From contig JANYHB010000012.1 of NCBI GenBank assembly GCA_025359265.1, positions 1 to 64,000 on the forward strand: DNA of 64,000 bases, written 5' to 3'. The notes under the pieces are model-generated. The model ran no database searches. It was not told where the DNA came from and was given only the letters and a program-made list of their open reading frames with translations. The stretch is from Hyphomicrobiales bacterium. Lineage in GTDB: Bacteria; Pseudomonadota; Alphaproteobacteria; Rhizobiales; Aestuariivirgaceae. Below, piece after piece: positions 9,332 to 31,212 of the stretch (the stretch's first letter is position 1; each line of letters begins with the position of its first letter). Made by a program: the position numbers and the translations under genes.

Positions 9332-11581
9332 ATGAAATTGAAGCTTGTAGTGAGTGTTCTAGGTTTTGCACTCTTTCTTCCTCCAGTCGTAAACTATGTG
9401 CCGCCTGCACAAGCCCAGGTTTCCAAAGATACCGCTGTCTTGCCGCCGGAGCTGACTTTGATCCTCGGCGAAAAGCGCAAACTCGCTGAATTAAGCCCTG
9501 AGGAATTGAAAGTGCGTTTCCGCCTTTTGCGCCAAGCCGCCGCCTCGCCTGATCTTCCACCCGCTTTACATGAACAGATTGTAGTGTTGGAGCAAGCCAC
9601 CAAGACCGAGCTTGAGGCGCGCGCACAAGCCGCACAAGGTGCCGGTGAGCCTCCCAAAGTTGCAGCACCGGAACCCAAAAAATCCACCGAGCTTGCGCCA
9701 GATCCAGCTGCAGTGGCGAAATCCAAGGCAGATTTAAAGGCCGCAGCTGATGCCCAGGCCGCAGCTGCCCAAGCCGCAGCCGAAGCGAAAGCAGCGGCTG
9801 CCCAAGCCGCGGCGAAAGCAGCGGCTGACTCCAGTACAAAAATGGCCGCTGATGCAAAGGCCAAAGCCGATGCGCAAGCCGCAGCCGATGCAAAGGCGGT
9901 TGCTGAGGCAAAATCCAAAATGGCGGCAGAGGCAAAAACGCAAGCTGATGCCCAAGCTGCCGCTGGTGCCAAAGCCGCGGCCAAAGCGGCTGCTGATGTC
10001 AGCGCGGCCAACGATGCCAAAGCCAAGATGGCTGCCGCCGCAAAGGCCCAAGCCGATGCGCAGGCCGCCGCAAAAGCTGCTGCAGCTGCCGGCGTAGCCA
10101 AAGATTCCAATGCAAAAATAACCGCCGATGCACAAGCCGCTGCTGATGCGCAAGCCGCTGCCGATGCGCAAGCTGCTGCCGACTTGCAGGCCGCAAATGC
10201 CAAAACTGCTGGCGATGCCAAAGCTAAATTATCGGCAGACGCAAAGGCTGCGGCAGATGCCAAGGCGAAAATCGCAGCTCTCGCAGCTGCCGCCGCAGCC
10301 CAACAGGCGGCAACCGCAGCGCAGCCGCCGCTTGCAGCCCCCGCCGATAAAGCCACATCATTGGCTCCGGCGCCCGCCCCGCCAGCAACCCAGGCGCCTG
10401 TGCCAGCGAAAGTTCAGGAACTGGACGCCAACGTTGGAGATCCGGGCGCTGAAAAGCAGGCGCAAGCCTATATTACCAGCGGGGCCAATCTGGCCAGCCT
10501 GAGCAATGATGATTTGCGCAAGCGCCTTGATGATGTCCGCGAACTTTTGGCGGCCAATCAGCTTTCACAAGATACTGAGCGTGCCGTCCGCGCCAAACTT
10601 CTGAAGGAGCGTGAAGCTCTGCGTCTGCGCTTGGCCGCGGCCGACGCAACCAAGCAGCAACAGGTGGCGGCACAAACGCCGCCTCCACCGCCACCGCCTT
10701 TGGTCCAAGGCAAACCCTTGCCGCCGCCGCCACCAGCCCAACCCACCAATGGCTCTGGGTTAAACTTCAACTTGTCGGTCGGCATCATAACGGCAGTGAC
10801 CCCACCGCGGCGGGTTTTGGAAGACACGCGACCTGCTGAACAGTTGCAGATTTCTGAATTGCAGCGCCGCCTGCAGGTTTATGATGAAGCACAAGCCGAC
10901 GCGCGTTATGACGCGGCTAACCGCGACTATTGGCGCCAATCTTTGGGTTATGACCGCGAAGTGCTGCGCCGCCGCTTGCTGGCCGAGCGTCGGCAAAGAG
11001 CGGTCGATTTGATGACGCAAGCTGCCGACGACCAGTTGGATGTGGAGATTAGCCCGACATTCACGCCCGGCCGGCCTCGGCGTTCAGTGTTTGCCGCTGA
11101 AGTTGATCAGCGCCAGCTGCAAGACGTTCTTACTGCGGCACCGTCACAAGAGTATCAACCGCGCTATAAAGTGAAAGACATTGCCAATGATCCGGATTTG
11201 CGCGGCGCATTGCCCCGAATTGAAGTGGACACGGTGCATTTTGGTTATAACGAAGGTTTCGTGCGTGAAGAGGAACTGGCCCATCTCGACAACATCGCAT
11301 CGCTGATTGAGCGCATTGTGAAGAAATATCCGAATGAAGTTTTTCTGATTGAAGGCCACACCGATGCCGTGGGTTCTGATCTGTCCAATCTCAAGCTATC
11401 TAAATTGCGCGCCGAAAGCGTGAAGAAAATGATGATTACCTATTACGTCATTCCAGCCAATAATCTGCGCACTGTAGGCTTGGGTGAGCGCTTCCTCAAA
11501 ATTCCAACTGCCGATCCCGAAGCCGAGAACCGCCGCGTTTCTCTTGCACGTATCACGCCACTGTTGGCGAGGGGGCAGTAG
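9332..11581 (+). CDS. Large Ala-rich exported protein with C-terminal OmpA peptidoglycan-binding domain
   Basis: Predicted envelope protein of about 749 residues. Order of parts: signal peptide (KLKLVVSVLGFALFLPPVV, cut near AQAQV); a charged helical segment with ELSPEELKVRFRLLRQAAA; an extremely Ala-rich tract (about residues 100-345) built from repeated AAADAQAAA / AKAKADAQ units; a second LSNDDLRKRLDDVRELL module echoing the first; a Pro-rich linker (PPPPPPPL); an Arg/Tyr-rich helix; and a C-terminal OmpA domain with EGHTDAVGSDLSNLKLS..RAESVK and ENRRVSLARI, the Asp/Arg pair that grips diaminopimelate. The start has a GAAGGA site upstream; an in-frame start at 9272 would extend it without a signal peptide at the end. 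Role probably a tether between wall and outer membrane; exact function unknown. Confidence 0.85.
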   Translation: MKLKLVVSVLGFALFLPPVVNYVPPAQAQVSKDTAVLPPELTLILGEKRKLAELSPEELKVRFRLLRQAAASPDLPPALHEQIVVLEQATKTELEARAQAAQGAGEPPKVAAPEPKKSTELAPDPAAVAKSKADLKAAADAQAAAAQAAAEAKAAAAQAAAKAAADSSTKMAADAKAKADAQAAADAKAVAEAKSKMAAEAKTQADAQAAAGAKAAAKAAADVSAANDAKAKMAAAAKAQADAQAAAKAAAAAGVAKDSNAKITADAQAAADAQAAADAQAAADLQAANAKTAGDAKAKLSADAKAAADAKAKIAALAAAAAAQQAATAAQPPLAAPADKATSLAPAPAPPATQAPVPAKVQELDANVGDPGAEKQAQAYITSGANLASLSNDDLRKRLDDVRELLAANQLSQDTERAVRAKLLKEREALRLRLAAADATKQQQVAAQTPPPPPPPLVQGKPLPPPPPAQPTNGSGLNFNLSVGIITAVTPPRRVLEDTRPAEQLQISELQRRLQVYDEAQADARYDAANRDYWRQSLGYDREVLRRRLLAERRQRAVDLMTQAADDQLDVEISPTFTPGRPRRSVFAAEVDQRQLQDVLTAAPSQEYQPRYKVKDIANDPDLRGALPRIEVDTVHFGYNEGFVREEELAHLDNIASLIERIVKKYPNEVFLIEGHTDAVGSDLSNLKLSKLRAESVKKMMITYYVIPANNLRTVGLGERFLKIPTADPEAENRRVSLARITPLLARGQ
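9720..10320 (+). repeat. Degenerate Ala/Lys/Asp-coding tandem repeat tract
   Basis: Within the OmpA-domain gene, short units such as GCCGATGCGCAAGCCGC recur in irregular copies, giving runs of ADAQAAA, AKAAADA and AKAKMAA. The six-frame result is long spurious open frames on both strands. The period is irregular (about 7 to 11 codons) and copies differ at third positions, so the tract looks old rather than freshly expanded. Confidence 0.75.
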
Positions 11582-12563: not shown

Positions 12564-12929
12564 ATGAAATACGCATTGGCAAGCATCAGTTTGGCCGGAC
12601 TATTATTGGCAGCTTCGGCTGCAACGATACCAGCGGCGGCAGCAACGGGCGACAAACATATCCGCCATCATGCGGTAAGGCATGGCCAACACTTGACCTA
12701 TCACCACTACAGACACCATTATTACCCACGTGTTGGCTATGGTTATCAGCAATATCCATTTTATGGCAGTAACGACCCCTATTCGAGCTACTATGATGAT
12801 GGATTTGGCGAAGGTGATGCAGGCGGGCTGCTGTTCGGCAGCGGGTTTGGTGGCGGTTATGGTTATAACCATCGTTTTGGAGCCAGCCCGTTCTATTTGC
12901 CTTATGGCCGACATCACTGGAATCACTAA
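12564..12929 (+). CDS. Small His/Tyr/Gly-rich exported protein, unknown
   Basis: A 121-residue protein with a clear signal peptide (KYALASISLAGLLLAASA, cut near AAA). The mature part has a His-rich front (HIRHHAVRHGQH, YHHYRHHYY), a Tyr/Gly-rich middle (VGYGYQQYPFYG, FGGGYGYNH) and ends GRHHWNH. The His clusters could bind metal ions, but the composition is of low complexity and I would not assign a role. It has a strong ribosome site (AGGAG) and its own terminator. The overlapping frame starting at 12389 is not coding. A second protein of similar composition lies at about 39.5 kb. Confidence 0.7.
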   Translation: MKYALASISLAGLLLAASAATIPAAAATGDKHIRHHAVRHGQHLTYHHYRHHYYPRVGYGYQQYPFYGSNDPYSSYYDDGFGEGDAGGLLFGSGFGGGYGYNHRFGASPFYLPYGRHHWNH

Positions 12930-30552: not shown

Positions 30553-31212
30553 CTATGTTAAAGGCAGAATGGTAATTTCAACACGGCGATTTTGCGCCTT
30601 GCCAGAGGCTGTGGCATTTGAAGCAACAGGGTCGCTGGCTCCGTGCCCTTCCACCGAGAAACGGTTGGAGTCTAACTGTTGTGCTGAAAGATATTGTGCA
30701 ACGGAAGCGGCGCGGCGGCGCGATAGATCAAAATTGTAATTGGCATCACCCGAACTATCTGTGTGGCCCGTGACATTGATCAGGGTTTGCTTGAACTCTT
30801 TAAATACCAATGAAACGGAATTCAGCGTATTGTAAAACTGCGGTTTCACATCGGCCTTGTTGGTATCAAACGTGATGTTGGACGGCATGTTCAACACAAT
30901 CGAGTCTCCCACACGGGTGACTGAAACCCCCGTGCCTTCCAAGCGCTGGCGCAGTTTGGCTTCCTGGTTATCCATGTAAAGGCCAATACCACCGCCCGTA
31001 AGGGCACCAATGCCCGCCCCGATCAAAGCCGCTTTGCGCGCATCTGCGCTGACGGCAGACCCTATAATTGCACCAGCAATCGCACCCACGCCGGCACCAG
31101 CGCCCACACCCACGGCAGTATTTGAAACTTTCTGTTCACCCGTAAACGGATCGGTCGAACAGCCAGCGAGCAAGACTGTCAATCCAACGGCGGCATGCAT
31201 TATTTTATTCAT
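30553..31212 (-). CDS. OmpA-domain lipoprotein with glycine-zipper (YiaD-like)
   Basis: Outer-membrane lipoprotein of 219 residues. The N-terminus has a lipobox LLAGC (Cys at residue 18). The next segment is a Gly/Ala-rich glycine zipper (GVGAGAGVGAIAGAIIGSAV and a second GAGIGALTGGGIGLYMD), likely to insert in or span the outer membrane. The C-terminal OmpA domain has NVTGHTDSSGDANYNFDLS, RRRAASVAQYLSAQQ and QNRRVEITILP, which bind peptidoglycan. YiaD-like proteins are outer-membrane stress factors. It is co-transcribed with prmA. Confidence 0.92.
   Translation of the reverse strand: MNKIMHAAVGLTVLLAGCSTDPFTGEQKVSNTAVGVGAGAGVGAIAGAIIGSAVSADARKAALIGAGIGALTGGGIGLYMDNQEAKLRQRLEGTGVSVTRVGDSIVLNMPSNITFDTNKADVKPQFYNTLNSVSLVFKEFKQTLINVTGHTDSSGDANYNFDLSRRRAASVAQYLSAQQLDSNRFSVEGHGASDPVASNATASGKAQNRRVEITILPLT

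Follow-up and report, generated by a model that had tools for sequence, protein, structure and literature searches.

A modular OmpA-domain protein of Hyphomicrobiales with a repeated helical module and spacers of variable length

Introduction

Several well-described envelope proteins end in an OmpA-like domain, among them OprF (C-terminal domain, PDB 5u1h), Pal, YiaD and A. baumannii OmpA (PDB 3td3 and 3td5). Here we analyse a protein encoded in the first 64 000 nucleotides of contig JANYHB010000012.1 of a Hyphomicrobiales bacterium (the window) that has the same C-terminal fold and signature. Unlike those proteins, it has neither a barrel nor a lipid anchor, and its N-terminal part is built from copies of a helical module and from spacers of low complexity.

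TolA, which spans the periplasm, is a second point of comparison. According to PMC12204202, TolA domain II is helical or Pro-rich depending on the clade and measures 110–335 residues across Proteobacteria; the authors raise a possible link between TolA and TonB spacer lengths and the width of the periplasm, for which few measurements are said to exist. Like the spacer of the window protein, domain II of TolA and TonB is a long segment in the envelope whose form drifts from helical to Pro-rich, and TolA domain II is the best precedent for a chemically drifting spacer. The C-terminus of the window protein is nevertheless an OmpA rather than a TolA domain, the gene is not part of a tol operon, and no motor-binding helix was recognised.

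Within the order, OmpA family proteins of Bosea, Nitrobacter, Sinorhizobium and Ochrobactrum/Brucella resemble the window protein in having a signal peptide and an extended region of low complexity; their C-terminal part is related too, with 35–43% identity in the more distant matches. What sets the window protein apart from this order-wide family is a helical module found in only 10 of 64 scanned ORFs. None of the papers listed in the literature searches concerned the 749-residue protein or its module, and OmpA is not mentioned in the main text of PMC7327166. The protein is most likely a variant of OmpA-domain wall anchors that has not been seen before.

Domain organization and C-terminal fold

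The 749-residue ORF proposed in the initial annotation was confirmed (table 1); gaaggacacccc stands 5′ of its ATG. The N-terminal sequence has the look of a cleavable signal peptide, with a putative cleavage site AQA↓Q at residues 26–29. The called starts of the relatives open a similar hydrophobic stretch, a likeness that is partly by construction, since these starts were assigned with a hydrophobicity rule. As there is no Cys anywhere in the window protein, it is not a lipoprotein, and the lipobox cysteine of Pal and YiaD is absent; Cys is likewise missing from 27 of the 28 proteins counted, the window protein included. The signal-peptide-like N-terminus, the Pro-rich linkers and the C-terminal OmpA domain are all present as first described, the last of these through a match to PF00691.

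Table 1. Features of the OmpA-domain gene in the window.
Feature	Coordinates	Strand	Remarks
Whole ORF, modular OmpA-domain protein, 749 aa	9332..11581	+	
Signal peptide, residues 1–28, Sec/SPase I type	9332..9415	+	read from sequence; putative cleavage site
Module copy 1, residues 44–104	9461..9643	+	short helix and helical hairpin
Ala-rich tract, residues 132–328	9725..10315	+	predicted long helices 132–256 and 261–328
Pro/Ala linker and LDAN...DPxAE lead-in, residues 329–379	10316..10468	+	
Module copy 2, residues 380–441	10469..10654	+	
Pro-rich linker ending in GLNFNLSVGIITAV segment, residues 442–494	10655..10813	+	
Module copy 3, residues 495–556	10814..10999	+	missed in the initial annotation
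OmpA-like peptidoglycan-binding domain, residues 644–733	11261..11530	+	PF00691; Asp678 and Arg693 invariant in aligned relatives

The OmpA match (3.4e-11; 43.8 bits against a gathering score of 27.2) was the only one in a Pfam scan of the whole protein. All 21 NCBIfam models listed stayed below their cut-offs, the best, YiaD, scoring 49.6 bits against 175. Asp678 and Arg693 are invariant in each of three alignments (23/23, 38/38 and 9/9 sequences), the structure alignments drawing on 37 and 8 of the 64 related ORFs, and these are the positions at which Asp and Arg bind diaminopimelate in A. baumannii OmpA. The stretch EGHTDxxGxDxxNxxLSxxRAxxV of the window protein aligns with OprF.

The C-terminal part (residues 475–749) was modelled with a mean pLDDT of 89 and a pTM of 0.84, and the best PDB match of this model was the peptidoglycan-binding domain of OprF (5u1h, E 2.5e-08). 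By computation, then, the modelled C-terminus shows a canonical wall-binding fold. The AlphaFold2 model of the full-length protein was weak (pLDDT 65, pTM 0.29). In both models, strands of at least three residues are confined to the OmpA fold; in the full-length model, of low confidence overall, none occurs before residue 631. The N-terminal 8-strand barrel of OmpA porins is not seen, with no such strands upstream in this low-confidence model and scores below the porin cut-offs. Foldseek searches with the two models yielded 364 and 227 matches; the titles of the 50 listed name only OmpA-, Pal- and MotB-type domains and Dot/Icm cap chains, so they are uninformative on the helical module. The last module and the OmpA part together span 254–260 residues (CV 0.01, n = 26 of 28, leaving out L028, at a contig end, and L032, whose C-terminal stretch reads as if shifted).

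A helical module in two to six copies

The initial annotation had noted two related modules flanking the Ala-rich tract. The repeat, of approximately 60 residues, is real, but it is present in three copies, the third directly before the OmpA part; and while the tract does lie between the first two, there is nothing special in this flanking, as the tract is one of several inter-module spacers. Iterated profile searches seeded with each window copy arrived at the same total, 104 copies spread over 28 proteins, the window protein among them, with two copies in two proteins, three in eight, four in 15, five in two and six in one.

Pairwise comparison of the window copies shows hardly any likeness: scores at least as high arise in 28, 111 and 153 of 2000 shuffles for pairs 1–2, 1–3 and 2–3, respectively. 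A profile of 75 copies from which the window and its Ala-rich clade had been left out nevertheless found all three (3.4e-10, 1.8e-13 and 4.6e-17), with one match below 1e-3 in 400 locally shuffled proteins. The echo between modules is therefore genuine, though proven only via relatives. To avoid circularity, the other copies were searched with a model trained solely on the last ones. Of 76 earlier copies it recovered 53 at iE < 1e-3, and a shuffled set of 560 (28 × 20) gave no match. The 23 that it missed, which include window copies 1 and 2 (0.029 and 0.0011), indicate that divergence is high. Mean pairwise identity is 0.50 and 0.51 for the last two copies (n = 28) versus 0.35 for the first copies (n = 26). 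Given that the last two are conserved while the first drift, the functional core is probably formed by modules n−1 and n together with the OmpA part.

In the C-terminal model the module comprises three helices, one short, one of 15 residues and one long, and the full-length model predicts the same short helix and hairpin for each of the three copies, where block pLDDT is mostly 79–91. Pfam gave no match to the module in the window protein. A PDB sequence search with the module yielded nothing convincing: engineered proteins scored best (E 0.05), and a weak similarity with a phosphatase and actin regulator chain (6zee, 0.19), presumably via an RPxxEL-like string, was taken as chance. One ortholog (L017) has six modules separated by spacers of 32–40 residues, the later ones Gly-rich, the opposite of the window protein with its three copies and one 275-residue spacer.

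Length and composition of the spacers

The Ala-rich tract is present as described, between the first two modules, where 275 residues contain 47% Ala; in its densest part, the 197 residues listed in table 1, 108 are Ala (55%). The long helices predicted there by AlphaFold2 have moderate confidence (block pLDDT 48–84). No amphipathic or coiled-coil periodicity at 3.5–3.67 residues was found in the tract; for Ala itself a period of 2.0 stands out, its power of 3.58 exceeding the 95% level of shuffles (1.94). Each of the four Ala codons is in use (GCC 41, GCA 25, GCT 25 and GCG 17). Tandem repeats in the DNA of the tract are short, with at most 3.3 copies of 18 bp, and recent slippage as its sole origin was not convincing given such short arrays.

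Counting lengths in relatives bears on the earlier suggestion that the tract is a spacer or a molecular ruler. At the tract position the spacer ranges from 32 to 275 residues (CV 0.70, n = 26 of 28, two proteins having no such spacer); taking the longest spacer instead gives 40–275 residues (CV 0.61), and the linker before the last module measures 27–84 residues (CV 0.35, n = 28). The spacer part of the suggestion holds, with long helices predicted upstream of the wall-binding fold, while the ruler part does not, as length varies freely. Ala-dominated spacers belong to one 8-genome clade (total 184–343 residues, Ala 0.29–0.41); in the other 18 genomes the total is 80–217 residues and the Ala fraction 0.08–0.27, and relatives outside the clade have mostly Pro-, Gln/Glu- or Gly-rich spacers. 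Pro content falls as spacers lengthen (raw rho −0.61). Length compensation, with Pro-rich spacers shorter because they are more extended, was considered and rejected: a rough contour estimate from a crude model (0.15 or 0.31 nm per residue) runs from 26 to 90 nm, still a 3.4-fold range (CV 0.30).

As a proxy for periplasm width we used TolA-like ORFs, recognised by position and pattern rather than by profile; in the window's genome this ORF adjoins tolB, upstream of it, on contig C43. The comparison covered 26 of the 28 genomes, leaving out G011 (no upstream part) and G028 (TolA not recognised). TolA length is nearly fixed within the genus, at 300–340 residues (CV 0.037), whereas the total spacer of the window protein and its orthologs varies from 80 to 343 residues (CV 0.41). 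Raw rank correlations between spacer and TolA domain II were weakly positive for length (rho 0.40, p 0.045), and for composition they were 0.48 for Pro-Pro (p 0.013), 0.31 for Ala-Ala (p 0.13) and −0.38 for Ala-Pro (p 0.053). As phylogenetic independent contrasts (the tree being a midpoint-rooted FastTree) the values were −0.16 (p 0.52), 0.08 (p 0.64), 0.05 and −0.27, respectively, all four with p > 0.2; the shared tree can explain the weak raw correlation in length. A ruler should behave like TolA, and since spacer length does not, being neither conserved nor, with TolA as proxy for periplasm width, tracking distance, the term is unsupported. One genus thus offers a clean comparative test of ruler against slack spacer, in which TolA length is near-invariant and the spacer of a wall-bound protein is fourfold variable.

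In five orthologs (L009, L010, L023, L025 and L031) an Asn/Thr-rich segment (NNTTINNT-like) precedes the last module, where the window protein has GLNFNLSVGIITAV; NNTTVNNTT-like strings also occur in the Sinorhizobium and Ochrobactrum relatives.

Proposed role and alternatives

We favour, with a probability of roughly 0.6, a non-lipidated periplasmic protein bound to peptidoglycan via its OmpA-like domain and carrying partner-docking helical modules on an interchangeable string. The protein would be exported to the periplasm, presumably by the route that its signal peptide suggests, and the C-terminal domain would anchor it there non-covalently to peptidoglycan, in vivo binding being the expectation from its fold. 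Two to six helical-hairpin modules would sit on the low-complexity string and, chiefly the last two, probably serve to dock another component of the envelope. Any string that is long, soluble and either extended or flexible would do, leaving its chemistry free to drift from Ala-rich helix to Pro/Gln/Glu- or Gly-rich coil and back; the Ala-rich tract would then be an interchangeable reach-extender rather than a ruler of fixed length. The architecture, module repeat, wall-binding fold and spacer variability were established by computation. Because no membrane anchor was identified, ‘tether’ is a weaker description than ‘wall-bound protein with arms’.

The freely varying length, the restriction of the Ala-dominated form to one clade and the short tandem repeats in the tract DNA would also suit a neutral low-complexity expansion of no mechanical role, with modules and OmpA domain doing all the work. 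We consider this unlikely, as a total spacer of at least 80 residues is kept in 28 of 28 proteins, and the use of four Ala codons alongside short DNA repeats suggests that the amino acids, not a DNA repeat, have been kept. Very unlikely, in our judgement, is a molecular ruler in which an Ala-rich rod fixes the membrane-to-wall or the inner-to-outer membrane distance. The predicted helices of 125 and 68 residues would reach approximately 29 nm if straight (1.5 Å per residue), and the raw length correlation with TolA domain II points the same way, but a CV of 0.70 at the tract position, against 0.037 for TolA in the same genomes, argues against it, as do the length contrasts, the differences in spacer composition between clades and the lack of a 3.5–3.67-residue periodicity such as would speak for a stiff coiled coil.

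A TolA/TonB-like force transducer, whose uncleaved N-terminal helix would engage a proton motor and pull on the wall through the OmpA domain, is less probable again. It would account for the TolA-like order of parts (hydrophobic N-terminus, long helical/Pro-rich spacer, C-terminal domain) and for a spacer that drifts as TolA domain II does in the account of PMC12204202 cited above. The N-terminus, however, reads as cleavable; it has no His in its first 29 residues, which makes the SHLS motif given for TolA and TonB helices in PMC12204202 impossible; a scan of nine window proteins revealed no motor subunit; and the genome has its separate TolA-like ORF next to tolB. As for an ordinary OmpA porin or Pal homologue, the Pfam match is to OmpA and ‘OmpA family protein’ is the name that would be given, but the idea is refuted as to family membership and otherwise scarcely credible, with all 21 NCBIfam models below cut-off, no Cys for Pal-type lipidation and no strands of three or more residues outside the OmpA fold.

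A bolder extension of the wall-bound reading, which we regard as quite unlikely, is that the approximately 60-residue module is an undescribed docking domain confined to this gene in a few Hyphomicrobiales genera and that, with the N-terminal motif described below, the family is an undescribed envelope tether joining a membrane component to the wall via a slack string that evolves freely. The analysis in any case adds an uncurated helical repeat.

Distribution and an N-terminal motif in relatives

A match at 1e-5 is present in 32 of the 37 genomes of the genus, counting the window's own; in G019 and G025 it is weak and limited to the OmpA stretch. Ortholog loci, whole or partial, occur in 30 of 37. 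The 28 proteins compared above are these 30 minus L024 and L030, which have no called start; the A1 set excludes L011, L014, L021, L024, L028, L030 and L032. The gene is dispensable in some genomes, since the near-complete G012 and G025 gave no match to the C-terminal profile at 1e-30. Order-wide, that profile matches 161 of 297 genomes at the same threshold. Named records among its best 80 matches include Bosea, Nitrobacter, Sinorhizobium, Ochrobactrum/Brucella and others, the nearest being an alphaproteobacterial MAG (L034). The best 80 also contain gammaproteobacterial OmpA proteins of Halomonas/Billgrantia (L064 and L103), the former with an Ala/Glu/Asp-rich part upstream of OmpA.

The module is rarer. 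Its profile (A2) was built from 47 of the 104 copies, less redundant and with the window copies included, so that the three matches of the window protein itself are by construction; at E ≤ 1 nothing else in the window's genome matches. The module occurs in 10 of 121 order genomes, always in an ORF that also matches the C-terminal profile. The 64 ORFs scanned order-wide represent 64 of 80 loci retrieved; the ten with the module (L034–L043) come from MAGs, Anderseniella and IMCC20636, and the other 54, some truncated by contig ends, gave no module match. In the class (289 genomes) two genomes match: that of the window and a second, at E 1.6e-5, in an ORF that looks like SecA by reading rather than by profile; we attribute that match to chance.

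Shortly past the signal peptide, many relatives carry a hydrophobic-x-hydrophobic-Ala-Gln motif, usually followed by Ala or Glu, that is absent from the window protein; carriers include the OmpA family ORFs of L035, L037, L045, L050, L052, L059, L075, L079, L091 and others. Outside the genus 40 of 43 relatives have it, as against 10 of 28 within and 9 of 502 control windows in spacers; these counts are descriptive, as the motif was spotted by eye and the pattern loosened before they were made. With a strict pattern the figures were 27 of 49 for family starts, 7 of 28 for the genus and 3 of 586 for control windows; with a third they were 39 of 43, 11 of 28 and 16 of 502. Of the quoted matches, that in L042 coincides with the cleavage site and that in L018 falls inside module 1, and there may be others of either kind. 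Among other secreted-like ORFs at the same loci, setting aside family members at L044, L062, L070, L078, L086 and L090, 5 of 103 have the motif, and most of these five matches read as falling on the signal-peptide cleavage site. At the level of the family, the motif offers a lead to whatever ties the Hyphomicrobiales envelope together.

Genomic context

The three genes upstream encode an amino-acid ABC transporter and are conserved neighbours in the genus and at L034, L035, L037, L039 and L040 (5 of 12 loci compared). Nothing ties them to a wall-protein function, and no conserved operon at these loci points to a partner. A 121-residue His/Tyr/Gly-rich protein that looks secreted is encoded at 12564–12929 (+) and has no Pfam match at 0.001. 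The window also holds a second OmpA-domain gene, at 30556–31212 (−), between an MlaC-like gene and a PrmA-like methyltransferase gene; its 219-residue product has a glycine zipper (PF13488) and is YiaD-like by reading.
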